Of a stretch of DNA of 25,467 nt, positions 3,601-25,287 are shown in pieces (within the stretch, counting starts at the first letter, position 1; every line of letters starts with the position of its first letter). The notes beneath the pieces were generated by a model. The model was not told the DNA's origin. It ran no database searches and worked only from the letters and a program-made list of their open reading frames with translations. Origin of the DNA: a virus. The stretch covers positions 1-25,467 of the IMG/VR virus record IMGVR_UViG_3300005534_000261; one strand, 5' to 3'. Made by a program: the position numbers and the translations under genes.

Positions 3601-4476
3601 ATGGCAAATATTATCTTACCTAGTCAAATACCTGAGAACAGGAGAAAATTAGAAGAGTGGAAGGCGAAAAGGTTACGCTCAGGCCTCCACTTGCCTTCCT
3701 ACAAATACTTGGCTGTTCCAGGATACTGGCGTAAAAATGTCAAGCCGGATACCTATGAGGAAGTGATAGCGCGGTCTGCAAGGCATCAATGCGTTTGGCA
3801 ACTGGAAAACTGGGACGCGAATACAGGGGAATTGTGGGAAAGAGGATGCGCTCACAATGTCATCACTGACAACGGTGGCATTAGCATGCTCAAGAACCTG
3901 TGGAATAGTGCAGGTTCAGCAATCGCCATTGGTTCTCACGTCACTGTTTCGCCCAATGGATTCGCGGCGAAACTTAGCGTGGCATCGGGTACTTCTGCTA
4001 CCACATCGCTCTCAGTTCAAGCGCTCGTAAACGGCCTTGCCAATGGCTCAACTATGACGCTTGGCTACAACGGCTCAAATCCGACGACGATCACGTTGAA
4101 TGCTACTGCTAGTGCAGGAAACACAACGTTAACTGTAGTGTCATTCACGCCTGCTATTAACTTCCCAATTGGAACGGACATCGTTGCTATCCCATCCGTT
4201 ACCGACAATCCATCTTCAGTCAGCGGTACGGTTGATAGCGGCGCTCTTGCATCAGGCGCGTTTACTTATAATGCAACAACTGGATTAGGTAATAGAAACG
4301 TTGTGATAGTTGCAACGATAACAGGCACAAGCGGAAATGCAGGAACATATAGTGAGGCATATACTGGCAACAATGCCACAATTGCTACAGGTACAACATT
4401 CTCACACATCATTATTCCTGGATTTGTCTTGAATTCGAGCACAAACGAGACCCTCACGCTAACCGAGAAATCGTGA
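3601..4476 (+). CDS. Probable phage tail/virion protein
   Basis: A 291-residue protein starting at ATG 3601 after AGAAAGAGG. The first ~100 residues are charged, with aromatic and basic clusters (GYWRKNVKPDTYEEV, WERGCAHNVITDNGG). The remaining ~190 residues are Ser/Thr/Gly/Ala-rich predicted beta strands with repeated NGS/TATTS-type stretches, as in tail-fibre or adhesin shafts. It lies between the tail-tip gene and other tail genes on the same strand. The N-terminal half probably anchors it to the virion and the C-terminal half forms the exposed part. No enzyme motif is visible. The specific family is not recognised; the virion assignment rests on context and composition. Confidence 0.6.
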   Translation: MANIILPSQIPENRRKLEEWKAKRLRSGLHLPSYKYLAVPGYWRKNVKPDTYEEVIARSARHQCVWQLENWDANTGELWERGCAHNVITDNGGISMLKNLWNSAGSAIAIGSHVTVSPNGFAAKLSVASGTSATTSLSVQALVNGLANGSTMTLGYNGSNPTTITLNATASAGNTTLTVVSFTPAINFPIGTDIVAIPSVTDNPSSVSGTVDSGALASGAFTYNATTGLGNRNVVIVATITGTSGNAGTYSEAYTGNNATIATGTTFSHIIIPGFVLNSSTNETLTLTEKS

Positions 4477-4502
4477 ATTACGGGCATAAAAGGAGAAACG
4501 AT

Positions 4503-4787
4503 ATGGCATATATTCCAGTAGATAGTACTCATTTGACTGTTTCGTTGCAGAATGATCTTCAGCAATGGAGAACAACCATCGCATGGGCGAAACAGCGATA
4601 TCAGGCGTATAATCAACAATTAACCCCTACTGTCATGACTGCTCTAAGCATTAGTGCTGCTGATCAGACGGCTATCACTGCTTTTGTGAACGATCTAGGA
4701 AGGTTTGTACAACTAGCAGGAGGGACGTTACCAGCAAACGCTACTGATATGATCACGAACATACAGAATGTGCTTGGAGTGATGTAA
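4503..4787 (+). CDS. Small tail-region protein of unknown function
   Basis: A 94-residue protein starting MAYIPVD. This ATG is preferred over an upstream start at 4473 because AAAAGGAGAAACG precedes it at good spacing, while the longer form adds an unlikely basic leader overlapping the previous stop. It is probably mostly alpha-helical (LQNDLQQWRTTIAWAKQRYQAYNQQL), with a Thr/Ala-rich middle. Its position between virion genes suggests a minor structural protein or chaperone. No motif supports a more specific role. Confidence 0.6.
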   Translation: MAYIPVDSTHLTVSLQNDLQQWRTTIAWAKQRYQAYNQQLTPTVMTALSISAADQTAITAFVNDLGRFVQLAGGTLPANATDMITNIQNVLGVM

Positions 4788-4790
4788 GCT

Positions 4791-6953
4791 TTGGGTACGC
4801 TTACATACTACGGTACTTCAGTAGCAGATACGACGCTTACAACTGCTTGTGTTATGGCATCAGCTAGTGGTGGGACTGAGACAAGCAAGCAGACGATCTT
4901 GACTGCCTCAAATGTCTATGGTGAGGTATGGTCAAAGGGGAATGCGGGATTGGCAACGGTAACAGCCATTCCTGCAACTCCGACTGGTAACGGGTGGATA
5001 TGCTACCCCGGGGCGGGAACGTTTGCAACCGGAAACTGGAGTGCTGTTTTTACCTTTGCTCACGTTGCAAGTACAACTTCTGATGTTACTATTCGTTTCT
5101 TTAAACTTGTAAGTGGTGTTTATACATCTATAGGAACAATTAATACAGCAACAAATACAGCAGCAAAAACGACGTGGACTTTTACAGCAACTTCAATGAG
5201 TACAATAACATTTAGCAACGCTACTGATGGTCTTTATACTGATTTATGGTATCACGATAATAATACTAATGCTAATGCAGATAACCCTACTATTTATATT
5301 GGCAACTCTTCTAGCGCTGGAGTCGCTAATGACATGCAAATCACCACATCAACGTTTACACCTGCAAGTACCACCAATACATTTACTGCTCCTGCTGAGT
5401 CTGTTTCTATTTCTGAAGTATATACAATTATCGGACTTCCATCTCCTGCTTCTGAGAGTGTTTCTGTTCTGGAATTAACTACTTTAATGGCAGGTCAGCC
5501 ATTTCCTACCGACTCTGTTTCACTGTTAGATTTGAACACGCTCGTGGGCTCAACTACGCTTGCATCTGAGTCAGTTTCTCTAGGGGAAACAAAGCTGATA
5601 GCTGGTGTACCGATGCCAGTTGAAAGTGTGTCAGTTAATGAAATTCTTAATTCTCAACTTGGATCATTTCAAAATACTGATAATGCTCCAATATCTGACC
5701 AGATTAATCCTACCGGGATAACAACAATAGCCGCTGAGAGTGTGTCTCTAGGAGAAACAAAGCTGCTATCAGGCGTTCCCATGCCTAGTGAAAATGTATC
5801 TTTGACCGACCTATCCACCTTGCAAGGGGTAACCTCAATTGCTTCTGAGAGTGTGGGATTGGGCGAGTCGACGCTCTTAACAGGGAAACCATCAGTTACG
5901 GACGCGGCGGTACAACTAGGGGAGTCAGGCCCGTCGCTTGTGGGCATGCCGTCATCTGCTGATAGCGCGGCGGTTGCGGACGTCGCAAACTTGCTAGGGA
6001 CAACTTCAGTAGCATCTGAGAATGTACAGCCAGGGGACAGCGTATCTAGCGCGGGCGCTCTCCAATCAACTGAGCTTGCCCAACTCTCCGAGCTATCTAA
6101 TCTATCCGGTTCAACTCAGATTGCTTCTGAAAGTGTGTCACCTTCAGATAGTAATTCCCAGTCAGGGCAAGCCCAAAACTTCGAAAGTGTGGGGCTTAGT
6201 GAGAGTACGTCTCAATATGGATCCATGCAAAGCTCTGATTCTGCTCAACTTTCAGAGCTTCCACAGCTCACAAATCAATCTCAAATTGTCGAGATAGCGC
6301 AGTTGGCAGAAAACTATTCTCTATTGGGCTCAACTCAAATCACGCCCGAGTCCGTTCAACTCTTTGAACTGCTCAATTTGCTAGGGCTGATCCAATCTAC
6401 CGATAGCGTTGCGCTAGGGGAAACGGTCTCTTATTTCACAGCAGTTGTTTTCATCGCACCACCTGAAGGTGTGTCACTCTCAGAACAGTACAGTTTAGCC
6501 GGCTCAACTCAGCAAGTCGAGAGTGCCCAACTCTCCGACGCATCCACCTTGCAAGGGGGAATGCAGGTAGCTCCTGATCAAGCGTCTCTTTCTGAACTGT
6601 TGCAGATGGTGGGGAGTGTTCAGATTGTTGAGAGTGCTCCAATCTCTGAACAGTATTCCTTGCTTGGAAGCATTCAACTTTCTCCTGATAGCGCATCTCT
6701 TTCTGAACTGCTCAATCTTGTTGGCACCATCCGTATAACCGACGCTGTACAGCTCTCAGAGCTTCTTCCATTGATGTACAACGCTATTCCTACCAATATA
6801 GTGCTCTATGCACGTGGCGGGAATGTCACGGTGTACACACGTCAAGGTCAGACTGATGTGTATGCACGTCAAGGCAATGTTGAAGTAAATACACGCGATG
6901 GCAGCGTTACTGTAAATGCACGTCAAGGAAATGCAAATCTGCATGAGGGGTGA
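4791..6953 (+). CDS. Tail-fibre-like protein with ~25 copies of an 18-19-residue ESVSLSEL repeat
   Basis: A 720-residue protein with a probable TTG start at 4791, preceded by GGAG about 11 bases upstream. Residues 1-195 look like a beta-sandwich (TTWTFTATSMSTITFSNATDGLYTD spread over several strands). From about nt 5397 to 6780 there are about 25 degenerate units with the pattern (E/D)(S/N)(V/A)(S/Q)LxELxxLxG and a polar spacer, mean period about 18.7 residues. The last 50 residues switch to five 9-residue units of the form VYARQGNVE (nt 6804-6938). This looks like a rod or solenoid ending in a small beta-repeat tip. Context supports a virion fibre. Units 8 and 21 carry the palindromic 18-bp repeat (STLQG). 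The structure is inferred; no known family was recognised. Confidence 0.7.
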   Translation: MGTLTYYGTSVADTTLTTACVMASASGGTETSKQTILTASNVYGEVWSKGNAGLATVTAIPATPTGNGWICYPGAGTFATGNWSAVFTFAHVASTTSDVTIRFFKLVSGVYTSIGTINTATNTAAKTTWTFTATSMSTITFSNATDGLYTDLWYHDNNTNANADNPTIYIGNSSSAGVANDMQITTSTFTPASTTNTFTAPAESVSISEVYTIIGLPSPASESVSVLELTTLMAGQPFPTDSVSLLDLNTLVGSTTLASESVSLGETKLIAGVPMPVESVSVNEILNSQLGSFQNTDNAPISDQINPTGITTIAAESVSLGETKLLSGVPMPSENVSLTDLSTLQGVTSIASESVGLGESTLLTGKPSVTDAAVQLGESGPSLVGMPSSADSAAVADVANLLGTTSVASENVQPGDSVSSAGALQSTELAQLSELSNLSGSTQIASESVSPSDSNSQSGQAQNFESVGLSESTSQYGSMQSSDSAQLSELPQLTNQSQIVEIAQLAENYSLLGSTQITPESVQLFELLNLLGLIQSTDSVALGETVSYFTAVVFIAPPEGVSLSEQYSLAGSTQQVESAQLSDASTLQGGMQVAPDQASLSELLQMVGSVQIVESAPISEQYSLLGSIQLSPDSASLSELLNLVGTIRITDAVQLSELLPLMYNAIPTNIVLYARGGNVTVYTRQGQTDVYARQGNVEVNTRDGSVTVNARQGNANLHEG
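5814..5831 (+). repeat. Dispersed palindromic repeat, copy 3
   Basis: TCCACCTTGCAAGGGG followed by TA (17 of 18 positions match the consensus). It is in frame, encoding STLQG inside one unit of the ESVSLSEL repeat array. Confidence 0.85.
6543..6560 (+). repeat. Dispersed palindromic repeat, copy 4
   Basis: Perfect TCCACCTTGCAAGGGGGA, in frame, encoding STLQGG inside another unit of the same repeat protein. Confidence 0.9.
6804..6938 (+). repeat. Five tandem 27-bp (9-residue) repeats at the fibre C-terminus
   Basis: Five in-frame 27-bp units encode LYARGGNVT, VYTRQGQTD, VYARQGNVE, VNTRDGSVT and VNARQGNAN. The DNA is also conserved (GCACGTCAAGG recurs). The alternating hydrophobic-Tyr/Asn-x-Arg-x-Gly pattern suggests a short beta-roll or tip. 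Confidence 0.85.
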
Positions 6954-13004: not shown

Positions 13005-13202
13005 TTAAGCAACTGCTGTTGATGTCATCAGCGTGTCTAGCGTTGAACGCTTAATCCGGTAGGCTTGCCTCTTGTTCGCATGTGGGAGACTGATAGCCTC
13101 TAGTGCTCCCGACTTTATCCACCGGCGTACAGTTGTGTCATCCACACGAAGCGCTTCTGCAACCTCGTGTACTGTAAGCAACTCTTCATTTACTTGTGCC
13201 AT
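13005..13202 (-). CDS. Small excisionase-like HTH DNA-binding protein
   Basis: A 65-residue protein. ATG 13202 (MAQVNEELLTVHEVAEAL) is preferred over an upstream in-frame start because CGAAAGGAAAGAAAACC precedes it. Residues 8-55 match the HTH_17/excisionase-type winged helix: LLTVHEVAEALRVDDTTVRRWIKSGALEA, then KRQAYRIKRSTLDTL. Such proteins act as transcription regulators, Xis-type directionality factors or replication initiators. Own promoter (13250-13279) overlapped by a 7-bp inverted repeat suggests autoregulation. No integrase gene is seen, so excision is not supported. Confidence 0.8.
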   Translation of the reverse strand: MAQVNEELLTVHEVAEALRVDDTTVRRWIKSGALEAISLPHANKRQAYRIKRSTLDTLMTSTAVA

Positions 13203-16483: not shown

Positions 16484-17329
16484 CTACCACCCGTCTTGTA
16501 TTGTGTCGTCAAGTGGAGAAAAGTCCCCATTAGCAATTTTCTCCACATCATCTACCACAGCCTCAATAACTGCATTCGGATCAATATCTCTCCCCTTGCG
16601 AGGGGTGTCACTAAACGGATCTTCATTCCCTTCAGAAGTCTTGGGAGGGCAGAATGCAATGATTCGATTGTACATTTCCGGCTCTGTCACTTGAGCCGCT
16701 ATTTTCTTCAGTGTTTCATGCATGGGCTTGGGATTTTTTTTGTCAGGCATGAAGTTCTTGGCTTGCCCTTCTCCGATTTGCTCAATGGTAAAGTCGCGTT
16801 CATTGAGCAAGCCATTCTCAGGATCTTTGGGGAAATCTTTGAAGTACTTCAGAAGAGGCGCAACTCTGCCAAACGGAGTCAGCTCCAATAACCGAACTCC
16901 CTTGACTTCCTTGGTTACCTTGCTCCCATCCTCTTGTTTTTCCTCATAAGTGACAATTTTCCCGTCCTCATCTACCACTTGGTAGACATACACAGGGAGA
17001 AAGAACCACTCACCTGCAGTCAACTTTTTATTCTCTTTTGCCATCTCGCAATAGAGGCACGGTTTAGCTGGCTCAAGTTCACAAGCACAAATGGCATTAA
17101 CGTTGTACTCGCGATCTTTGTGCCAATGGTTGTGCTTCATCAGCTTCACGCCGCCTGACAATCTTCCGACTAGAGGACGAATTGTAGCTTTCTGTCCTGG
17201 TTTGAGCCACAAAAACAAGGGTTTCTTGCTTCCTTCTCTTGCGGCTTTCGCATCGGCAGCTGCTTTAGCCGCACGCTCAATTGCACGATCAATGGCCTCG
17301 TCAGTGTTCATGTGTCTTAGTGATTGCAT
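16484..17329 (-). CDS. Phage single-strand DNA-binding protein (gp32-like)
   Basis: A 281-residue protein; ATG 17329 is used, though ATG 17311 (MNTDEAIDRA) is possible because the ribosome binding site is weak. After a helical Ala-rich start comes PLFLWLKPGQKATIRPLVG, a strand-rich OB-like region, and a zinc site with Cys81, Cys83, Cys91 and Cys94 (CACELEPAKPCLYC), followed by WFFLPVYVYQV. This matches phage gp32-type SSBs with an embedded zinc ribbon. The C-terminal tail is acidic (VVDDVEKIANGDFSPLDDTIQDGW), as expected for recruiting replication partners. First gene of the operon, behind a near-consensus promoter and a structured leader. A variant palindrome (CCCCTTGCGAGGGG) lies in the linker before the tail. 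Confidence 0.75.
   Translation of the reverse strand: MQSLRHMNTDEAIDRAIERAAKAAADAKAAREGSKKPLFLWLKPGQKATIRPLVGRLSGGVKLMKHNHWHKDREYNVNAICACELEPAKPCLYCEMAKENKKLTAGEWFFLPVYVYQVVDEDGKIVTYEEKQEDGSKVTKEVKGVRLLELTPFGRVAPLLKYFKDFPKDPENGLLNERDFTIEQIGEGQAKNFMPDKKNPKPMHETLKKIAAQVTEPEMYNRIIAFCPPKTSEGNEDPFSDTPRKGRDIDPNAVIEAVVDDVEKIANGDFSPLDDTIQDGW
16592..16605. repeat. Variant palindromic repeat CCCCTTGCGAGGGG
   Basis: One base changed from the core of the dispersed repeat (GCGA for GCAA), with different flanks. It lies in frame in the SSB linker, encoding TPRKG. Confidence 0.6.
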
Positions 17330-17379
17330 TCTTTTCTTCTTTCTGCCTAGACATGGCTAGGACTTCAAATTTAATCAGT

Positions 17380-17442
17380 GGTTACGCGATGCGGTGCGAC
17401 CAGGAGTAAGGCTCGGTATCCACAAATTGTCACCGCGTAACC
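17380..17442 (-). ncRNA. Structured 5' leader upstream of the SSB operon
   Basis: The arms GGTTAC-GCGGTG and CACCGC-ATCGC-GTAACC (minus strand) form a 12-bp helix with a 5-base bulge on one side. Inside, ACC-GAG and CTC-CT-GGT can form a second hairpin with loop CCTTA. The element begins about 5 bases after the predicted transcription start. It could be a protein-binding site for autoregulation by the SSB, a riboswitch, or a replication primer RNA. No known riboswitch class was recognised. Confidence 0.5.
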
Positions 17443-17453
17443 TTCTGATGAAT

Positions 17454-17482
17454 AGTATAGACTAGTATTGTGTTTTTGTCAA
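17454..17482 (-). promoter_or_regulatory. Strong promoter of the SSB operon
   Basis: Minus-strand TTGACA (perfect) and TATACT (5 of 6) with a 17-base spacer. Confidence 0.85.
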
Positions 17483-17540
17483 TAGTATTGTTCATTCTCA
17501 TAAATTATTGACAATGATAGAGCAGTATTGTATAGTATTG
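17464..17540. repeat. Four AGTATTG motifs in the divergent promoter region
   Basis: Copies start at 17464, 17484, 17524 and 17534, so spacings are 20, 40 and 10 bp, placing them on one face of the helix. They sit in the minus promoter spacer, next to its -35, in the plus promoter spacer and over its -10. A regulator binding here would control both promoters. Confidence 0.7.
17508..17536 (+). promoter_or_regulatory. Strong promoter of the HTH/endonuclease/helicase operon
   Basis: TTGACA (perfect) and TATAGT (5 of 6) with a 17-base spacer, 41 bp before the GTG start. Confidence 0.85.
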
Positions 17541-17577
17541 ATAGTGAACAACCAATCTTCTGAAAGGAGAGAGATCC

Positions 17578-17796
17578 GTGAACAACACCGACGAAGTACA
17601 GCTTACCGTAGCTGAAATGAAAAATCTCTTAGGATACAAAAATGACGTTTCTGTATTGAGACTCATTAGAAGAGGCGAATTAAATGCTTCTTTTATCAAA
17701 AATAGATACCTTGTAGAGGATAGCGAATTTAATCGGTTTCTAGAGTCGAGAAAAGGCGCTAGAGCAAACGACGTACGAAAAAGAAAAGACAACTAG
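17578..17796 (+). CDS. Small excisionase-like HTH regulator
   Basis: A 72-residue protein with a GTG start after GAAAGGAGAGAGATCC. The HTH_17 pattern is present (LTVAEMKNLLGYKNDVSVLRLIRRGELNASFIKNRYLVEDSEFNRFLESR), ending in a basic tail (KGARANDVRKRKDN). As the first gene of a divergent early operon it is the best candidate for the protein that binds the AGTATTG motifs, acting as early switch or autorepressor. That link is inference from position. Confidence 0.75.
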   Translation: MNNTDEVQLTVAEMKNLLGYKNDVSVLRLIRRGELNASFIKNRYLVEDSEFNRFLESRKGARANDVRKRKDN

Positions 17797-17845
17797 CAAA
17801 TCAAAAGAAAGCAGATCTGATGATTTTGTTGAAAGGAGTAGTAGA

Positions 17846-18589
17846 ATGATTGAATTGTTCCCTGATCAGCAGGAAGCATTAGATAGAGTCCTGGAACGCT
17901 ATAAAGAAATGCCAATAGGCGGAAGGGCACTTGTAGTAGCTCCGACCGCGTGGGGGAATGAAGATGTCCTTACAGTTAAAGAAGCCGCTAAAAAGTTACA
18001 CCTTCCTGACTACACAGTTAGAAAGATGATAAAACGTAAAGAACTAGAAGCAACATCAACATCAATAACTGTAAACAAACAACTTCAATATAGGATTTTC
18101 ACAAAGTCAGTTGAAAAATATATTGAAGCACATCCACCCAAACAAAAGGAAATTCTACCACCAAACAAACGCAGATGCATTGATTGCAAAGAAATAAAAC
18201 TTGTAGAAGCATTCTTTGAAGGTAGAAGAAAATGCAACGAATGTCGCAAGAAAGGATATCGGGATAAATACAACAGCAATCCTGATATCCTTAAAGCCAA
18301 CATCAGAAAACGACTGTACGGGATTTCTCAACAAGAATATGAACAAATGATTAAAGATCAAAACAACCTATGCGCAAGTTGCGGAAATCCTGAGACAACC
18401 ATACGCTATGGCAAACTTGATGCCTTAGCTGTTGATCATTGCCACGCTACGGGAGCGGTAAGAGGTCTTCTTTGCGCTAACTGCAATAGGGCACTAGGAA
18501 TGCTTCAAGAAGATCCTGAAAGAGTCAAAGCGCTACTTAAGTATATTGAAAATTATGTGACACATAAGGAGGTGTCCACAAATGCTTGA
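17846..18589 (+). CDS. Endonuclease VII-like HNH protein with HTH and helicase N-terminal stub
   Basis: A 247-residue protein after GAAAGGAG. Residues 1-37 look like the start of an SF2 helicase: a Q-motif region (LFPDQQEALDRVL) and ALVVAPTAWG, where GKT would be expected but the sequence goes to NED. Residues ~40-95 are an HTH (VLTVKEAAKKLHLPDYTVRKMIKRKELEA). Two Cys pairs follow (111/114 and 130/133). Residues ~150-238 match recombination endonuclease VII: Cys176/179, the DHCHATG core (197-203), RGLLCANCN with Cys210/213, and the following LGMLQEDPERV. Such proteins are phage HNH nucleases, many of them mobile. It overlaps the intact helicase gene by 8 bp. The stub lacks a working Walker A, so it cannot be a helicase. 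Confidence 0.8.
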   Translation: MIELFPDQQEALDRVLERYKEMPIGGRALVVAPTAWGNEDVLTVKEAAKKLHLPDYTVRKMIKRKELEATSTSITVNKQLQYRIFTKSVEKYIEAHPPKQKEILPPNKRRCIDCKEIKLVEAFFEGRRKCNECRKKGYRDKYNSNPDILKANIRKRLYGISQQEYEQMIKDQNNLCASCGNPETTIRYGKLDALAVDHCHATGAVRGLLCANCNRALGMLQEDPERVKALLKYIENYVTHKEVSTNA

Positions 18590-20237
18590 GCTAAGGCCGT
18601 ATCAAGAGGAATGCGTAAGGCTTGTTCTTGAGGCATTTAAAAAAGATAGAAGCGGCTATGAGATAATCATTTTACCCACAGGTGGAGGTAAGACTGTTTG
18701 TTTTGGGCAAGTTGCTTACAACATACAAAAGCAGCATGGTGGGAATGTATTAATAATAGCGCATCGTGAAGAGCTACTTGACCAAGCTGCTGACAAGTAT
18801 CGCATGATTTGCCCCAACGCTATCATAGGGAAAGTTGGATCAGGCGTACACGAATATGGATGTGAAGTAACCGTAGCATCCATCCAAACTATCAGCAGAC
18901 CAGACCATCTGGAGAAACTACAAAGCATTGGATTTGCCCTCATTATCGTTGACGAGGCACATCACATTGCGAGCAATTCATATCAGAAAGTGCTTCAAGC
19001 ACTGCCAAATGTTTTTACATTAGGTGTAACGGCTACTCCAGACCGTCTTGATAAAAAAGATATTTTGAAGGGTAAAAAACCACTTTTCAGCAGAAATATC
19101 ATTGAAATGGTTCAAGATGGTTATCTTTGCAATTTCAAGGCTATTGCAATTAAAACGCACATTAATCTTGATAATGTGAGCACTTCTATGGGCGATTATA
19201 ACGAGGGGGAATTGAATGATGCAGTCAACACCCCTGCTCGCAACGCTTTAATTGTTGAGAAATACAAAGAGCATGCGAATGGGAAAAAGGCCATTACCTT
19301 TTGTGTATCCGTTGCACATGCAGAAGCTCTTGCCCAAGCTTTTAACGAAGGTGGAATACCATCTGAAATGATAGAGGGAAACACACCAGGGGACAAACGA
19401 AAATTAATTCTCCATAATCACCGAATTGGAGAATTAACAAACATAACCAATGTAAATATCCTTAGTGAAGGATATGACGAGCCACGTGTAGAATGCATCA
19501 TCATGGCACGACCTACACAGTCAAGAGGATTATACGTGCAACAATTTGGACGCGGGCTTCGGCTAGCGCCTAGAAAGAAAGAATGCATCCTTCTCGACAT
19601 AACTGACAACTGTATGAACCATCGGTTATCACCTCAAAACCTCCGCAAGGCCATTGGTAAGCACCTCAACGATAATGAGACACTGTTAGAAGCTCTTGAA
19701 AGAGAAAAACTTGAGAGTGAAGAGCGGGAAATCCAGGTCCGCAAACTCAAAGAAAAACGGCTTGCAGATATTCAGATTGACCTATTCGAGAAGCTCGAGT
19801 GGAAAGAGCTTCCAAACAATGTGTTCTTGTTGGAGGTGGGCCCACAAAAGCATAAGATTGCATTGACACCTAGTCGGAGCAATCCAGAACTGTACTATGT
19901 CCAATTCAAGAGAGCGCCGTATAATGGCTCTCATGACAAAGCTCAGAAACTTACAAATGACCCGATGCCGATTGACTGGGCACAACAGGAAGCTGAAAAA
20001 GCCGCTCGCAAGATACTAGCAGAGCCACGCGGGATTAACTTGGTAGATCCGTCAGCTCCTTGGAGAAGTAAACCTGTTTCAGACGGTCAACGAGGGATGT
20101 TGAAAATGTACCGTATTGATATTCCTGAAGGAATGACAAGCGGACAGGCTAGTGATATTATCAGCAAACACAAAGATGAAATTGCAAAGAGGAAAGCGGA
20201 AAAAGCAGCACGCAAACGAGCAAAACAAGAGGCGTAA
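18582..20237 (+). CDS. SF2 DEAD/DEAH-box helicase
   Basis: A 551-residue protein; ATG 18582 follows AAGGAGGTG, an ideal ribosome binding site. Helicase motifs appear in order: Q-region LRPYQEE, Walker A LPTGGGKT (31-38), IIAHREELLDQA, VASIQTI, DEAH (124-127), TATPDR (150-155), ITFCVSVAHAEALA, LSEGYDEP and QFGRGLR (321-327). It most resembles the single-protein helicases of phage replication and recombination blocks related to RecQ/RadD and type III restriction helicases. The C-terminal 150 residues add a charged, partly coiled-coil region ending KAARKRAKQEA. Likely unwinds replication or recombination intermediates for the phage. Confidence 0.85.
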   Translation: MLELRPYQEECVRLVLEAFKKDRSGYEIIILPTGGGKTVCFGQVAYNIQKQHGGNVLIIAHREELLDQAADKYRMICPNAIIGKVGSGVHEYGCEVTVASIQTISRPDHLEKLQSIGFALIIVDEAHHIASNSYQKVLQALPNVFTLGVTATPDRLDKKDILKGKKPLFSRNIIEMVQDGYLCNFKAIAIKTHINLDNVSTSMGDYNEGELNDAVNTPARNALIVEKYKEHANGKKAITFCVSVAHAEALAQAFNEGGIPSEMIEGNTPGDKRKLILHNHRIGELTNITNVNILSEGYDEPRVECIIMARPTQSRGLYVQQFGRGLRLAPRKKECILLDITDNCMNHRLSPQNLRKAIGKHLNDNETLLEALEREKLESEEREIQVRKLKEKRLADIQIDLFEKLEWKELPNNVFLLEVGPQKHKIALTPSRSNPELYYVQFKRAPYNGSHDKAQKLTNDPMPIDWAQQEAEKAARKILAEPRGINLVDPSAPWRSKPVSDGQRGMLKMYRIDIPEGMTSGQASDIISKHKDEIAKRKAEKAARKRAKQEA

Positions 20238-20246
20238 GCTCATCTA

Positions 20247-20287
20247 TTTGTCAACATTATGGATATTTTGCCTACAATGTTGACAAA
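20247..20287. promoter_or_regulatory. 12-bp inverted repeat over the -35 box (operator 1)
   Basis: Perfect arms TTTGTCAACATT/AATGTTGACAAA with a 17-base spacer; the right arm contains the -35 TTGACA of the promoter at 20280. Confidence 0.75.
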
Positions 20288-20309
20288 ATCATAGTTCCTC
20301 ATTTATACT
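20280..20309 (+). promoter_or_regulatory. Promoter of the 20376 gene
   Basis: TTGACA (perfect) and TATACT (5 of 6) with an 18-base spacer. Confidence 0.8.
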
Positions 20310-20320
20310 ATTTGAGGAAC
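20294..20320. promoter_or_regulatory. 8-bp inverted repeat around the -10 box (operator 2)
   Basis: Perfect arms GTTCCTCA/TGAGGAAC with an 11-base spacer that contains TATACT. Confidence 0.65.
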
Positions 20321-20375
20321 AACTACCACTTAATCACCTTGTATAACGTTTCACATAAATGAAAAAGAGGTTCCA

Positions 20376-20621
20376 ATGAACGCTCTCCCCGCAAATGTTA
20401 CGTACGTAACAAATGACACTGAACAGTCTTTCAGCTACATGAAAGACGGAATTCGTACCAACCTCTCCATCCTATCACCTGCAGGTGACGACCCCGCTTG
20501 TATTTGCCATGCTCAATATGACGATGGGCATGACGCGCCTCTCAAACGAGAAATGATCCATATCAGCTCAGAAGAAAAGGGACTTTTGTCCGAGCTGCTT
20601 AAACGCTCCAAATTCATTTGA
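20376..20621 (+). CDS. Small unknown protein under a doubly covered promoter
   Basis: An 81-residue acidic protein; ATG 20376 follows AAAGAGGTTCC. Strands at the start (VTYVTNDTEQSFSYMKDGIRTNLSIL), two Cys in PACICHAQYDDGHD, then a helix (SSEEKGLLSELLKRSKF). Not recognised. It has its own strong promoter overlapped by two inverted repeats and its own terminator, so it is a tightly controlled single-gene unit. Such layouts fit an anti-host, anti-defence or immunity factor, which is inference. Confidence 0.65.
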   Translation: MNALPANVTYVTNDTEQSFSYMKDGIRTNLSILSPAGDDPACICHAQYDDGHDAPLKREMIHISSEEKGLLSELLKRSKFI

Positions 20622-20631
20622 AGAATTTGAA

Positions 20632-20666
20632 AGGCCCTAGAAATTTCTAGGGCCTCCCTCTTTTTT
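20632..20666 (+). terminator. Terminator between convergent genes
   Basis: A perfect 24-bp palindrome (AGGCCCTAGAAA and its complement) followed by CCCTC and six T. The opposing gene ends at 20665. Confidence 0.9.
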
Positions 20667-20964
20667 AATCCTCGTTACTCACCTCATCTACTACCCGTCT
20701 TAATTCATCGTTCCACTCTTGCTCACGTCCTACTTTTACAGATTTACGAAACACGTCTAATATACGTTTGTCATGATAAACATTTTGATCATTAAAAGGA
20801 AGCCTAAACAATGGAATAACTATTCCATTCTCTCTTTTAACTCTATCCACTTTTCTCCTAAAGCCACTATCCGTCATGCTTACGTATCTGGATGCATTTG
20901 TCCAATTGTAGTACGCTTTGTTGTTGTGGATAGCGTATTCTATCCCATTTTCATCTTCTGGCAT
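20665..20964 (-). CDS. Small wHTH-like protein
   Basis: A 99-residue protein; ATG 20964 (MPEDENGIEYAIHNNKAYY) follows CGAAAGGAAAGGTATCA, which decides against an upstream in-frame start. The part YYNWTNASRYVSMTDSGFRRKVDRVKRENGI followed by NVYHDKRILDVF fits a winged helix-turn-helix with recognition helix SGFRRKVDRV. Charged C-terminal helix (EWNDELRRVVDEVSNED). It has its own promoter (21029-21058) with perfect TATAAT and an AGTATTG block upstream, so it may belong to the same early regulatory circuit. DNA-binding role is tentative. Confidence 0.55.
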   Translation of the reverse strand: MPEDENGIEYAIHNNKAYYNWTNASRYVSMTDSGFRRKVDRVKRENGIVIPLFRLPFNDQNVYHDKRILDVFRKSVKVGREQEWNDELRRVVDEVSNED

Positions 20965-21028
20965 TGATACCTTTCCTTTCGAGACTGCACACACACAAAT
21001 AGATGGAACAATAATCCCTCTTACCTAA

Positions 21029-21058
21029 ATTATACAGTACTATCTTTCACTTTGATAA
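21029..21058 (-). promoter_or_regulatory. Promoter of the 20964 gene
   Basis: Minus-strand TTATCA and TATAAT (perfect) with an 18-base spacer. Confidence 0.7.
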
Positions 21059-21075
21059 GTCGGAAAGAGGGACAA

Positions 21076-21089
21076 AATAGTATTGTTCA
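21076..21089. repeat. 14-bp block shared with the divergent promoter region
   Basis: AATAGTATTGTTCA is identical to 17481-17494. It lies about 20 bp upstream of the -35 of the 20964 promoter, consistent with a shared regulator site. Confidence 0.65.
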
Positions 21090-21121
21090 GTATAGTAATC
21101 GTTAAAGCTATGCCAAAAGTA

Positions 21122-21155
21122 ACGCTCAATATAGCAAAAGAACTATACTGAGCGT
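21122..21155. terminator. Bidirectional terminator after the primase gene
   Basis: A 13-bp stem with one mismatch (ACGCTCAATATAG), 8-base loop; TTATTTTTAT follows on the plus strand and TACTTTTGG on the minus strand. It ends the primase operon. Confidence 0.7.
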
Positions 21156-21194
21156 TTATTTTTATGCTTTCTTTATATTCCATCCCAGCAAGGG

Positions 21195-22607
21195 CTATTT
21201 CTTTCTTTTCTTATCGAGGGCCCTTTCCAACACCCATTTTCCCCACACCTCCTGGCAGGGACAATCTTTATTAAGACATATACCAGGAACTAAATGAGAT
21301 CTCTCATATTCTTGAATGGTTAGGATGTTCAAATCTACTTCGGGCCCATACACCTTCATTTTAGAAAGAGCTTCTTCCCAATCTTGCAAATCTTTTTGTG
21401 ACCAGGGAGGGAGGTGATTTTTTGATTGCAAAAGCGACTCCACCTTGCAAGGGGGGATAGAGGGCACGTTTGCATCCCCCTCACTAGGGGGAAAGACAAA
21501 AGGGAGCGCCAGCTCAAACTCCACCTTGGCAGACTCAATTCCCGACTGTACCCAATCTCTTAGAGAGTACCCACCTTCTCTTTTTGCCCAATCAAAATAT
21601 TTCCCTCTCAAAATGTCATTTGGATCTTTCGCAACGAGCGGACTCCAGCGCATGCACTTCTTGAGATTTTTCAGCCAATATTCTGCACCAGTATCGCCTG
21701 ACTCATCCTCATCAAACGATTGGAGGACATGGGAAGCTAGTCCTAGTTCTGCTATCCATCGATTGAGCCGGCCTCTTGTTGTACTCCCTGTTGCGACACA
21801 AGCTACCAAGTTCCCACACTCCTGCTCAACCGACATCGCGCATATTTCTCCTTCCACAATCATGGCCGGCGTATCATATTGGACCTCACCAACATTGAAC
21901 AAACCTTCCCCTGACCCAAGAACTTGACCATACTCATTCTTGTCAATGCGCTTTAATCCTAACCTCCAAAGTGTAGATCCATCCATCCAAGGGATGAGAA
22001 TACCGTTAGGTATTCTAACTTTATCCTTGGTTTCTTTCGCCGGATCAAGTCCCCATTGCTCCAGCTCAGCTTCATAAAAACGTCCGTTGGATTGGAGAGG
22101 GATATAACCAAGCTTCTTTTTCTTGATAATATCATCACCTAGCCCCCTACCGTGCAGATAATCTAGCATCACGCGGCCTTCTGACGTGTGCCACAGCGCA
22201 TGTACAGCACGCTCTACAAGTAGCATGCCTGTCTCTATCCATTTAGCATTTGGAGGTTGTTCATTGCCAACGTGAGCGGATTGAAAGGGAATGGAAGGTA
22301 CAAAGTCAGCATTGGCTTCAATCTGGAGTATCTCGCAAGCTTCAGAGTGTGACATGTGCATAAAGTCCTTTAAAAAATCGATGCAATCGCCATGGCGTCC
22401 GCATCCTGACGAGCGGATAGCGTGTGAATAGTCCCCAAGCTCAGGACGCATGATAAAGCTATCTCTTGAGCCAGGACACCAGGGACAATTGGAGTGATAC
22501 TCCTGTACACCGTTGGAGGTAGACGGACGTCCTTTGTTGGCATATTGGATAGAGGCATACCGCTCGATGAGCGACTTGATATCGTAAGTTGGACTAAGCG
22601 TGGGCAT
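21195..22607 (-). CDS. Phage DNA primase with CHC2-like zinc finger and Toprim domain
   Basis: A 470-residue protein; ATG 22607 follows GAAAGGACATC. Zinc site near the N-terminus: CPWC (41, 44) and CGRHGDC (69-75). Toprim signatures follow: MIVEGE (about 250) and the DxD-type FDEDESGD (about 300). This is a DnaG/phage-type primase that would make primers for the helicases encoded nearby. No helicase domain is fused. Residues ~380-405 form a Pro/Ser-rich linker built by two adjacent 18-bp palindromes (PPSEGDANVPSIPPCKVES). The C-terminus adds a Cys cluster (CLNKDCPC) of unknown role. Confidence 0.8.
   Translation of the reverse strand: MPTLSPTYDIKSLIERYASIQYANKGRPSTSNGVQEYHSNCPWCPGSRDSFIMRPELGDYSHAIRSSGCGRHGDCIDFLKDFMHMSHSEACEILQIEANADFVPSIPFQSAHVGNEQPPNAKWIETGMLLVERAVHALWHTSEGRVMLDYLHGRGLGDDIIKKKKLGYIPLQSNGRFYEAELEQWGLDPAKETKDKVRIPNGILIPWMDGSTLWRLGLKRIDKNEYGQVLGSGEGLFNVGEVQYDTPAMIVEGEICAMSVEQECGNLVACVATGSTTRGRLNRWIAELGLASHVLQSFDEDESGDTGAEYWLKNLKKCMRWSPLVAKDPNDILRGKYFDWAKREGGYSLRDWVQSGIESAKVEFELALPFVFPPSEGDANVPSIPPCKVESLLQSKNHLPPWSQKDLQDWEEALSKMKVYGPEVDLNILTIQEYERSHLVPGICLNKDCPCQEVWGKWVLERALDKKRKK
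21439..21456 (+). repeat. Dispersed palindromic repeat, copy 7
   Basis: TCCACCTTGCAAGGGGGG (17 of 18 match). On the coding (minus) strand it is in frame, encoding PPCKVES in the primase linker. Confidence 0.85.
21475..21492. repeat. Second 18-bp palindrome with a different core
   Basis: TCCCCCT-CACT-AGGGGGA, same length and similar ends to the dispersed repeat but a different centre. It lies 18 bp from copy 7 in the primase linker. Confidence 0.65.
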
Positions 22608-22625
22608 GATGTTAAGATGTCCTTT

Positions 22626-22922
22626 CTAAAGCAACTCTAATTGCCTTGGTCTTTTTGACTCTGCAATTTCAGCTTTTAATTCTTTATAAAGCTGTTTCAA
22701 AGAAAAGATCTCGAAATAGGGCACGCCTTGTACTTTCGTGACAGCTACTTTATCATTTGGGATTGCCCTTGGCTTATCTCTCCAGATAACAGTTCCGCAA
22801 ATTTAGGCAGAATATTCTGTCCTCTCGCATTTTTCATGGCTTTGCAAAAGAGACTCCAGAGAGTCGCCTCTCTTAACATATAGCCGGAGGAAGTCCTTAG
22901 CCGCGTTACGTACAACTGACAT
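22626..22922 (-). pseudogene. Small gene interrupted by an in-frame TAA
   Basis: Reading from ATG 22922, two bases after the methyltransferase stop and behind GAGGCGG, one frame encodes MSVVRNAAKDFLRLYVKRGD and so on for 39 residues to a TAA at 22803-22805. The same frame then stays open for 58 more residues (…NDKVAVTKVQGVPYFEIFSL… LELL) to a TAG at 22626 that overlaps the primase ribosome binding site (TAGAAAGGA), as for intact genes here. Both halves look like real protein, so a single 98-codon gene with a nonsense change is the simplest reading. An alternative 44-residue ORF in another frame (22745-22879, MLREATLW) also exists. Function unknown. Confidence 0.5.
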
Positions 22923-22924
22923 TG

Positions 22925-23887
22925 CTACACCGCCTCTGCTACTTCATCATCAAACATCGTCATCTGACTGCGCTTATCTAGCACATTTTTGAAGTTTTTA
23001 CGAGCTACCTCAATATACGCTCGTTTTAGTTCAATTCCCACGAACTTTCTCCCCAATCGTAAAGCTTCATGTCCTTCACTGCCAATTCCTGCAAATGGAG
23101 AAAAGACGGTATCTCCTGGATTCGTCCATAGCTCTAACGCTCGTTTTATGACATCAAGCTGCAATGGGCAAATGTGTTTTTCGTCTTGCGATTCTCTTGC
23201 TTGCTGAATGTTCAACACGTTGGTTTGCTTGATATCAAACCAAACGGGGCTAGCGTAATTTTGCCATTTCCTAGGCCATGGCCTTTTGTGTTGAGCGTCG
23301 GGAGGTGCCATTCCAAAATCTTCTTCATTTGTTTCATCATGGCTTACTGGCTCCATTTTTGCCTCTTCCTCTTCGTTCTTAGGCCATCTACGAAAGATTA
23401 CAAGATAATCAGGAAGCCCCATTCGAGAAACCGAAGAATCAATCATGAGCTGTTTGTGAAGCAATCCGTGCGCTTCTGTTCTCTGCTGCTCGATGACTGG
23501 ATCTTTCCAGATGCACACCTCGCTATGATACGCCCACCCAGCCTCAACAAAATGACGGATGATTTCCCCTCTGAAATCTCGCAACCCTGCCTCTCCATCT
23601 CTCCCCTTGTAATTCACAAGCTGTTTACAATGGACAGCGCACAAGCGACCAGGAATTGTAATCCTGAAAAGCTCTCGAATTAAGAAGTCAAAATGCTGAA
23701 AGAATTCCGCGTCGCTTTTGCAGTTACCTGCATCACGGTCACTGTCTGAGTAGATGTACAAATTGGCGAACGGAGGACTAAAGATGCTAAAGTGAATAGA
23801 GGCATCAAGTAAAGCCCTTGCGATTTCAACACAATCCCCATGGTATAAAGCGTAATTCTCAGTGATAAATTGATCTAAAACGTTCAT
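22925..23887 (-). CDS. Beta-class DNA methyltransferase (N4-cytosine or N6-adenine)
   Basis: A 320-residue protein overlapping the helicase stop by ATGA, with GGAGGTATCGC before the ATG. The catalytic motif FSPPF (36-40) near the N-terminus and the AdoMet site SPFAGIGSEGHEALRLGRKF near residue 265 give the beta-class order (IV before I). SPP-F/Y is typical of N4-cytosine enzymes, but N6-adenine cannot be excluded. No restriction enzyme is adjacent, so it is probably a solitary phage methyltransferase that protects phage DNA or marks it during replication. Confidence 0.8.
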   Translation of the reverse strand: MNVLDQFITENYALYHGDCVEIARALLDASIHFSIFSPPFANLYIYSDSDRDAGNCKSDAEFFQHFDFLIRELFRITIPGRLCAVHCKQLVNYKGRDGEAGLRDFRGEIIRHFVEAGWAYHSEVCIWKDPVIEQQRTEAHGLLHKQLMIDSSVSRMGLPDYLVIFRRWPKNEEEEAKMEPVSHDETNEEDFGMAPPDAQHKRPWPRKWQNYASPVWFDIKQTNVLNIQQARESQDEKHICPLQLDVIKRALELWTNPGDTVFSPFAGIGSEGHEALRLGRKFVGIELKRAYIEVARKNFKNVLDKRSQMTMFDDEVAEAV

Positions 23888-25287
23888 GCGATACCTCCAA
23901 TATCTCTTCCGGTATAACTACACAACCAATCGGGTAGCTTCATCGGGACCTGTGGATTGTAGGCTGTAAGTGTCAAATCCTCCTGCAAAGAGAGAGAATT
24001 GACATTCATCGCGCTCGCTAGCTCTAGATGCGCTTGCATTTTGCGCTCCAGGCTAGAAACAAGAGGACCTTCAGTGTCGGCAGCTATGATGTAGACATTC
24101 ACTGGCATTGTTTGCCCAAATCGATACGAGCGCCGGATAGCTTGGTAAACATCTTCAAACGAATAACTAAGACCAACAAACGCTACATTGTGGCAGTGTT
24201 GCCAATTGAGCCCATAACCCGCGATTCCAGCTTTTGTGATCAGTACGCGGGTTTTCCCTTGGGTAAAATCGGTAAGTTTGCGCTCTTTCACCGCAATGGA
24301 TTCTGAACCACGTACTTCTACCGCGTCGGGAATGCGCTTGGTCAGCTCATCTGCTTCATAGTTTGTGTTACACCAAATAACCCAAGTTTCATCTGAATTA
24401 TTCACGAGGTCTGCTACCGATTGCGCTCGATCTGCAGATGTGATCCTCATCTCTTTGTGAAGAGATGTAGCTGACATAGTAGGGAGTCTGAAGAGTTGAC
24501 CTTCCGGTACGTCTTGAGTGATGTCAGTTTTTACATACCTGTAGATTATCTGAAGTTCAGGCAGGACAAAACCATCATCGCTAAATCCAAGATCGGAGGG
24601 ACGCCGGATGGATACCGCCCAGCTGGCTACCCACTCCCAAAAATCTTTAGATGCATGGCCCTTGAGCCTGTATTTTCCGTTGCTCATGGTATCATTGATG
24701 AACCACCGCATGAGCATCTCAGAGGACGGCATGATGCCTAGAAATTCGGAATGGTTCCCTAACTCCATATGGTCGTTGGGAGCAGGAGTAGCAGTACAGG
24801 CTAACCTGTAAGGAGTACTGGAGAAAGAGTCTACTAGGGCACGTTTGGTTTTGCCCATATAGGATTTGAGGATAGAAGATTCATCAGGTATCACGCCCAC
24901 AAAATGACTAGGATCAAAATGTTGCAACATCTCGTAATTTGAGATGTTTATGCCTGACTTCACATCAGCCTGTGATCGACATGGATGCACTTGGATACCA
25001 AGCTTTCGCCCTTCAGATATCGTCTGATGCACTACCCCCAAAGGAGCAAGAATTAAGATATCACCATTTGTGTACTTGTGAACAAGACGCCCATACTCTA
25101 ATTGCATGAAACTCTTGCCCATTCCACAGTCTGCAAAAAGAGCACATCGTCCTTTTTTAAGCGCCCATTGCACAATAACTTTCTGCCAGTCGAAAAGCAT
25201 AGGATGGATATCTTCCAAGCTCACTTCCAAGCCGCTCGTTTGGGCGACGGTTCGCTTACTGGCAAGGAATGTTTGATAATCTAACAT
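23884..25287 (-). CDS. SNF2-like SF2 helicase/ATPase
   Basis: A 467-residue protein; ATG 25287 follows AGAGGTGTG, one base after the preceding stop. Motifs: Walker A ADCGMGKS (52-59), LAPLGVV, a DEAH-box variant DESS (135-138), TATPAPND (165-172), WVIWCNTNYEADEL, ITKAGIAGYGLNWQ and the SNF2-type VI motif QAIRRSYRFGQ. It lacks the extra domains of chromatin-type SNF2 proteins. Phages often pair this helicase with a DNA methyltransferase, as here (ATGA overlap), which suggests they work on the same DNA during replication or modification. Confidence 0.8.
   Translation of the reverse strand: MLDYQTFLASKRTVAQTSGLEVSLEDIHPMLFDWQKVIVQWALKKGRCALFADCGMGKSFMQLEYGRLVHKYTNGDILILAPLGVVHQTISEGRKLGIQVHPCRSQADVKSGINISNYEMLQHFDPSHFVGVIPDESSILKSYMGKTKRALVDSFSSTPYRLACTATPAPNDHMELGNHSEFLGIMPSSEMLMRWFINDTMSNGKYRLKGHASKDFWEWVASWAVSIRRPSDLGFSDDGFVLPELQIIYRYVKTDITQDVPEGQLFRLPTMSATSLHKEMRITSADRAQSVADLVNNSDETWVIWCNTNYEADELTKRIPDAVEVRGSESIAVKERKLTDFTQGKTRVLITKAGIAGYGLNWQHCHNVAFVGLSYSFEDVYQAIRRSYRFGQTMPVNVYIIAADTEGPLVSSLERKMQAHLELASAMNVNSLSLQEDLTLTAYNPQVPMKLPDWLCSYTGRDIGGIA

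Follow-up and report, generated by a model that had tools for sequence, protein, structure and literature searches.

Mobile endonuclease open reading frames (ORFs) with swapped gene ends have been described in fungal mitochondrial DNA, in atp6 of Allomyces macrogynus and in atp6, atp9, cox2, and nad3 of a Glomus sp. (PMC3630166). Among phages, free-standing homing endonucleases occupy split genes, as with mobE in nrdA of phage Aeh1 and mobA in gene 60 of phage T4 (PMC2988022), and the harm done by a phage homing nuclease to a co-infecting rival through cutting of one of its genes has been documented (PMC11620839). Most proteins with a C-terminal Endonuclease VII (Endo VII) motif group with homing and restriction endonucleases in one clade, for which F-CphI supplied the name DHHRN; resolvases lie apart from this clade, most of them with an N-terminal motif (PMC6083498). 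A home-and-rescue gene drive, HomeR, has been engineered with Cas9 in Drosophila (PMC7968924).

The window analyzed here is a virus record of 25.5 kb in which a helicase start (the stub) is fused to an Endo VII-type nuclease directly before an intact helicase (Table 1). This arrangement is real and unusual, and it varies on a type of mobile gene that has been described before. It resembles the fungal ORFs in that an endonuclease lies in a conserved gene, the original end is displaced, and a divergent foreign copy is supplied to give a working hybrid gene. In the fungal genes, however, it is the C-terminal end that has been exchanged, with the old end left downstream, whereas in the window it is the N-terminal core, and the old start lies upstream, fused to the nuclease; moreover, the fungal cases are mitochondrial and of the LAGLIDADG or GIY-YIG types, and the present one belongs to a phage and is of the Endo VII type. 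As with mobE and mobA, the nuclease gene sits in a critical region of a phage replication gene and uses the expression signals of its host gene. Both halves of the host gene are kept in those two cases and reassemble as proteins, whereas the stub is apparently a dead remnant followed by a complete, different allele. To our knowledge, phage homing genes lie between genes, in introns or inteins, or within a gene whose halves still cooperate; here, unlike in those, the target has been destroyed and a different allele stands in its place.

Structure of the fusion gene and its uninterrupted relative

Table 1. Features of the fusion locus and of the helicase that follows it (window positions)
Feature	Position	Strand	Details
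Small HTH_17 gene, preceding the helicase in relatives	17578..17796	+	Pfam HTH_17, 1.7e-6
Helicase leader, Shine-Dalgarno AAAGGAG	17797..17845	+	Homolog precedes the intact helicase in L003 and L005
Three-part nuclease fusion ORF	17846-18589	+	ATG start, 247 aa; IMGVR_UViG_3300005534_000261
Helicase type B stub, residues 1-37, ending within Walker A	17846..17956	+	34/37 aa and 88/111 nt identical to L003:4001-4111
HTH_17 domain (41-96) and linker, in frame with stub	17957..18145	+	Pfam E, 1.7e-9
Zinc ribbon and Endonuclease VII domain	18146..18589	+	Pfam, 2.4e-22; PHROG endonuclease VII, 4.7e-33
Intact SF2 helicase, type A, 551 aa	18582..20237	+	Pfam ResIII, 3.3e-33; Helicase_C, 9.3e-13
Helicase core segment, residues 1-235, L006/L009-like	18582..19286	+	74-88% aa identity to L006 versus 31-65% to L003
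Helicase tail segment, residues 441-551, L003/L005-like	19902..20234	+	~70-79% aa identity to L003 versus 38-64% to L006

A first-pass annotation of this DNA had described residues 1 to 37 of the fusion ORF as the start of an SF2 helicase running up to the Walker A motif, where the sequence was said to break, at about nt 17957, into an HTH and a nuclease. Each of these points was borne out. The stub matched the intact helicase of viral contig IMGVR_UViG_3300050821_005740 (L003), the sole viral contig returned for these residues (tblastn, 8e-22; 92% match). It ends in APTAWG, the beginning of Walker A, after which NEDVL stands in place of KT; the HTH_17 domain and a zinc-ribbon/Endo VII nuclease (residues ~108 to 236, with the Pfam Endonuclease_7 match at 154 to 236) make up the remainder of the ORF. 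In L003, an uninterrupted helicase of 559 aa (4001-5680) occupies the same syntenic place, the shared gene order running from a minus-strand gene and a small HTH gene through the helicase to a small plus-strand gene, another minus-strand gene, and a primase-like gene. This is a relative of the kind that the annotation had suggested seeking, with a helicase N-terminus that matches the stub. DNA identity to L003, high through nt 17956, fell thereafter to near chance (12/30, 10/30, 13/30, 5/30, and 5/30), and the loss fell at the Walker A lysine codon (in L003, TGG GGA AAA ACA encodes W G K T; in the window, TGG GGG AAT GAA encodes W G N E). The stub differed from L003 silently at 14 codons and with a change of residue at 3, which indicated divergence mostly as working helicase sequence; this pattern would fit an insertion of fairly recent date or constraint of some kind acting on the fusion.

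No in-frame ATG, GTG, or TTG was found between the stub and the HTH, so the HTH-nuclease part relies on the start of the helicase. Since, moreover, the stub takes the very position of the native helicase start and follows the native leader, the earlier view that the nuclease had taken over that start held. The small HTH gene upstream was 69% identical to the one directly before the helicase of the related record L005. For the HTH part of the fusion itself, the nearest match was an excisionase-like HTH_17 gene on the minus strand of the same contig (13005-13259; 49% identity over 47 residues, E = 6e-7, to 13053-13190), and this domain also resembled HTH genes of Dictyobacter; the fusion was therefore perhaps assembled within this phage-host group. 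The GC3 of the insert was 29%, the lowest among the genes compared.

The stub-nuclease junction was present in one contig only, and searches of other viral contigs, a set from which near-identical records may have been withheld, returned no further junction. Likewise, only the window's copy of the three-part protein was found in searches, so it is not the widespread protein unlinked to helicases that would have spoken against the annotation. A pattern scan for the type B stub or P-loop elsewhere matched only the contig of L003 among true relatives, and a duplicate-stub test, which looked for nuclease genes close to a second copy of a gene start, gave no second case in 75 nuclease loci. A contig from another metagenome accession (IMGVR_UViG_3300027986_000288) was 100% identical to the window over 5,397 bases (18838-24234), indicating that the same phage is present in at least two assemblies; this contig starts downstream of the nuclease. 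An assembly chimera is an unlikely source of the junction, since the fusion keeps the frame, follows the native leader, and shares 8 nt with the start of the helicase, for which a ribosome-binding site is also present.

Several other candidates were considered and rejected. The fusion ORF contained no Hint or intein splicing domain by Pfam, and no Rfam intron match was obtained in 17300-20400 up to E = 1. Matches to HTH-nuclease sequences of Klebsiella phages extended out of frame or through stops and are not relatives of the three-part protein. A small hairpin (GACAC/GTGTC, 18559-18576) was observed within the nuclease gene, its loop holding most of the Shine-Dalgarno sequence of the helicase, and RNA of 17940-18600 folded better than shuffled versions (z about -4, 20 shuffles).

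The nuclease domain

The C-terminal part of the protein, a putative endonuclease, resembles F-CphI and the DHHRN family (PMC6083498). The Endo VII motif is C-terminal in the 247-aa protein, as in DHHRN homing endonucleases, and the two zinc-binding CxxC pairs and the D, H, H, R, and N residues of the family are all present. The active-site residues (D197, H198, H200, R206, and N214; DHxH...R...N) are intact and fall in conserved columns of the alignment; the zinc cysteines are C176/C179/C210/C213 in the nuclease and C111-C114/C130-C133 in the zinc ribbon. F-CphI adjoins an intron-containing psbA gene, whereas the HTH_17 domain and helicase stub are, as far as seen, particular to the present protein. 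In a predicted structural model, the zinc ribbon and nuclease were confident (residues ~101 to 240, pLDDT mostly 85 to 98) and the HTH was moderate. The stub was modeled poorly (residues 22 to 42 below 50), from an alignment that had no stub homologs; this is weak evidence that the stub may be a passenger.

The nearest solved folds to the modeled nuclease were those of Hpy99I, a restriction enzyme, and T4 Endo VII, a resolvase. This shared fold, together with a DNA methylase gene in the window (22925-23887), would be compatible with the nuclease being the phage's normal Holliday-junction resolvase or restriction enzyme, located beside the helicase by chance. We consider that reading most improbable. 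A C-terminal motif with extra HTH and zinc-ribbon domains is unlike the resolvase clade, the methylase also occurs in the related record L009 without the nuclease, and no Endo VII match was found in the records of L003, L006, or L009, which are possibly incomplete. The record of L005 held a weak, different Endo VII match ~12 kb away. The nuclease is not common throughout the phage group, being absent at the helicase locus in L003, L005, L006, and L009.

Helicase types and a putative route of homing

The annotation had described the helicase that follows as intact, with an N-terminus similar to the stub. It is indeed intact: its Walker A reads PTGGGKT, and its ATG lies within the end of the nuclease gene, with a Shine-Dalgarno sequence (AAGGAGG) inside the nuclease coding region. 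The similarity was, however, only 38% identity over the same stretch, and the two starts are of different types. Type A (IELRPYQEEC...) is the N-terminus of the window's intact helicase and of L005, L006, and L009, each of which has an intact helicase at the same position; type B is that of L003.

The window's intact helicase is a mosaic, with an L006-like core and an L003-like tail. Sites matching only L003 versus only L006 numbered 8 versus 83 in the core and 34 versus 2 in the tail (Fisher p = 7e-21), the trees of the two segments conflicted, and identity to L006 dropped to about 40% over the last ~110 residues in a codon-aligned comparison. The left part of the type B target is present as the stub, and the tail is L003/L005-like, but L005, in which a type A core is joined to the same tail, shows that this tail is not specific to type B. 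The rest of the type B core (residues 38 to 235), the missing remainder for which the annotation had advised a search, was absent from the window, where the only significant match was the homologous type A helicase. Composition was no marker of a foreign type A core, since the GC3 of core and tail differed in L006 and L009 as well.

We put at about even the chance that a homing-type Endo VII (DHHRN) gene landed in a type B helicase at its P-loop codon, function being kept by a type A core and the shared tail. The nuclease gene would have entered at or beside the P-loop lysine codon of the type B allele, and the HTH-nuclease would be translated in frame with the stub, relying on the leader, ribosome-binding site, and start that it captured from the helicase. 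Viability of the phage would be maintained by the full helicase directly downstream, with a divergent type A core that has its own start and that may have been joined to the shared tail by recombination. The nuclease would most likely cut type B P-loop DNA in co-infecting relatives; repair from the carrier, with a crossover in the conserved helicase tail, could then copy both the nuclease and the type A core in one event. Immunity of the carrier itself would follow from its sole complete P-loop being the type A version. The annotation had likewise proposed the landing of a mobile gene followed by replacement of the helicase; the real allele start, the break in Walker A, and the mosaic helicase of a different type agree with this, while mobility and the order of events, like cleavage and the target site, are matters that we infer from the sequence.

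Homing is favored because the uninterrupted type B helicase of L003 stands in the same place and begins exactly like the stub, because the break falls in the GK/T codons, near the site between P-loop Lys and Thr that phage intein work describes as the classic intein insertion point (PMC5050341), and because a relative in Ktedonobacter racemifer has an intein in another catalytic motif. The absence of the nuclease at the locus in the four relatives, the recombinant helicase with its conflicting trees, and the loss of the remaining type B core argue in the same direction, as do the difference between the type A P-loop DNA of the window and the type B site, the intact C-terminal motif shared with the F-CphI clade, and the low GC3 of the insert. 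The reading is weakened by the junction being present in a single contig. It is also weakened because, among the relatives, neighboring genes show mixed types even where there is no nuclease, and because L005 has the type A core with the same tail, so that ordinary recombination can make such mosaics. Nor was any donor found in which the nuclease adjoins a type A helicase and the stub is missing.

Two alternatives, either of which would produce an identical arrangement, draw on the mosaic nature of the phage group, in which L009 or L006 has the nearest counterparts of most genes neighboring the window's helicase, and L005 that of the HTH gene. The order of events might have been the reverse: the stub-nuclease would have formed in the type B helicase of another phage and then been placed by recombination ahead of a type A helicase already resident there, as a free-standing homing gene with an old address label. 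That L009 and L006 both carry type A, that the stub is 92% identical to L003 where the neighboring genes of L003 and the window are mostly 33 to 67% identical, and that L005 joins core and tail without a nuclease all speak for this order. It would, however, need a right-hand junction precisely at the type A start codon, given that the stub lies exactly at the native start and follows the native leader, and searches elsewhere gave no such stub-nuclease; we regard it as rather unlikely. Alternatively, illegitimate recombination inside the helicase gene might have joined a nuclease-helicase segment to a truncated helicase, with no homing and with the Walker A position a coincidence. The different nearest relatives of HTH gene, core, tail, and neighbors would be expected from such plain mosaicism, but the join is in frame and exactly in the P-loop codons, the nuclease type has a characterized homing member, and the insert replaces the gene start while a full replacement is kept. 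This origin we consider unlikely.

Returning to homing by insertion into the type B P-loop, a further and somewhat doubtful step would make the locus a natural phage home-and-rescue element, in which a P-loop-cutting nuclease travels with a divergent, cut-proof helicase core and homing replaces the replication allele of a rival. The logic would be that of HomeR, an insert in a needed gene together with a carried version that the nuclease cannot cut; HomeR, however, was engineered with Cas9, whereas the present case would be natural and is read from DNA letters only. If nuclease and allele travel together, the element would be the equivalent, in a phage, of the mobile ORFs of fungal mitochondria and of engineered home-and-rescue drives, and, if true, this would help to explain allele swapping in phage replication genes. 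The putative target, a short stretch of P-loop DNA, is directly testable.

Host and relatives of the helicase

The closest chromosomal relatives of the helicase were in Ktedonobacteria (Dictyobacter, a Ktedonobacteraceae metagenome-assembled genome, and K. racemifer), and the host of the virus is therefore probably a member of the soil Ktedonobacteria; relatives in cultured phages were ~31% identical or below. The helicase family appears to be a target of homing elements at its catalytic motifs, since the K. racemifer relative (NZ_ADVG01000004.1; L116:3642-7322) is interrupted within the DECHH motif by an intein (Pfam Intein_splicing, PT-HINT). Within this intein lies a DUF559 nuclease-like ORF (4363-4992) in a different reading frame; the same gene has, after EGYD, a second intein-like interruption, which spans a stop and is unrecognized by Pfam. 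Among Ktedonobacteria chromosomes, Endo VII genes occurred in 10/47 genomes, with an HTH or stub in none of those inspected. In two Ktedonobacteria-class genomes (L159 and L160), Endo VII-type genes whose N-termini carry a double zinc ribbon occurred as tandem pairs. In the window, the methylase gene adjoins an SNF2-like helicase gene (22925-25287, minus strand), and in Dictyobacter (L114:7437-9770) one long open frame seemingly encodes a methylase and an SNF2-like helicase fused as a single protein.
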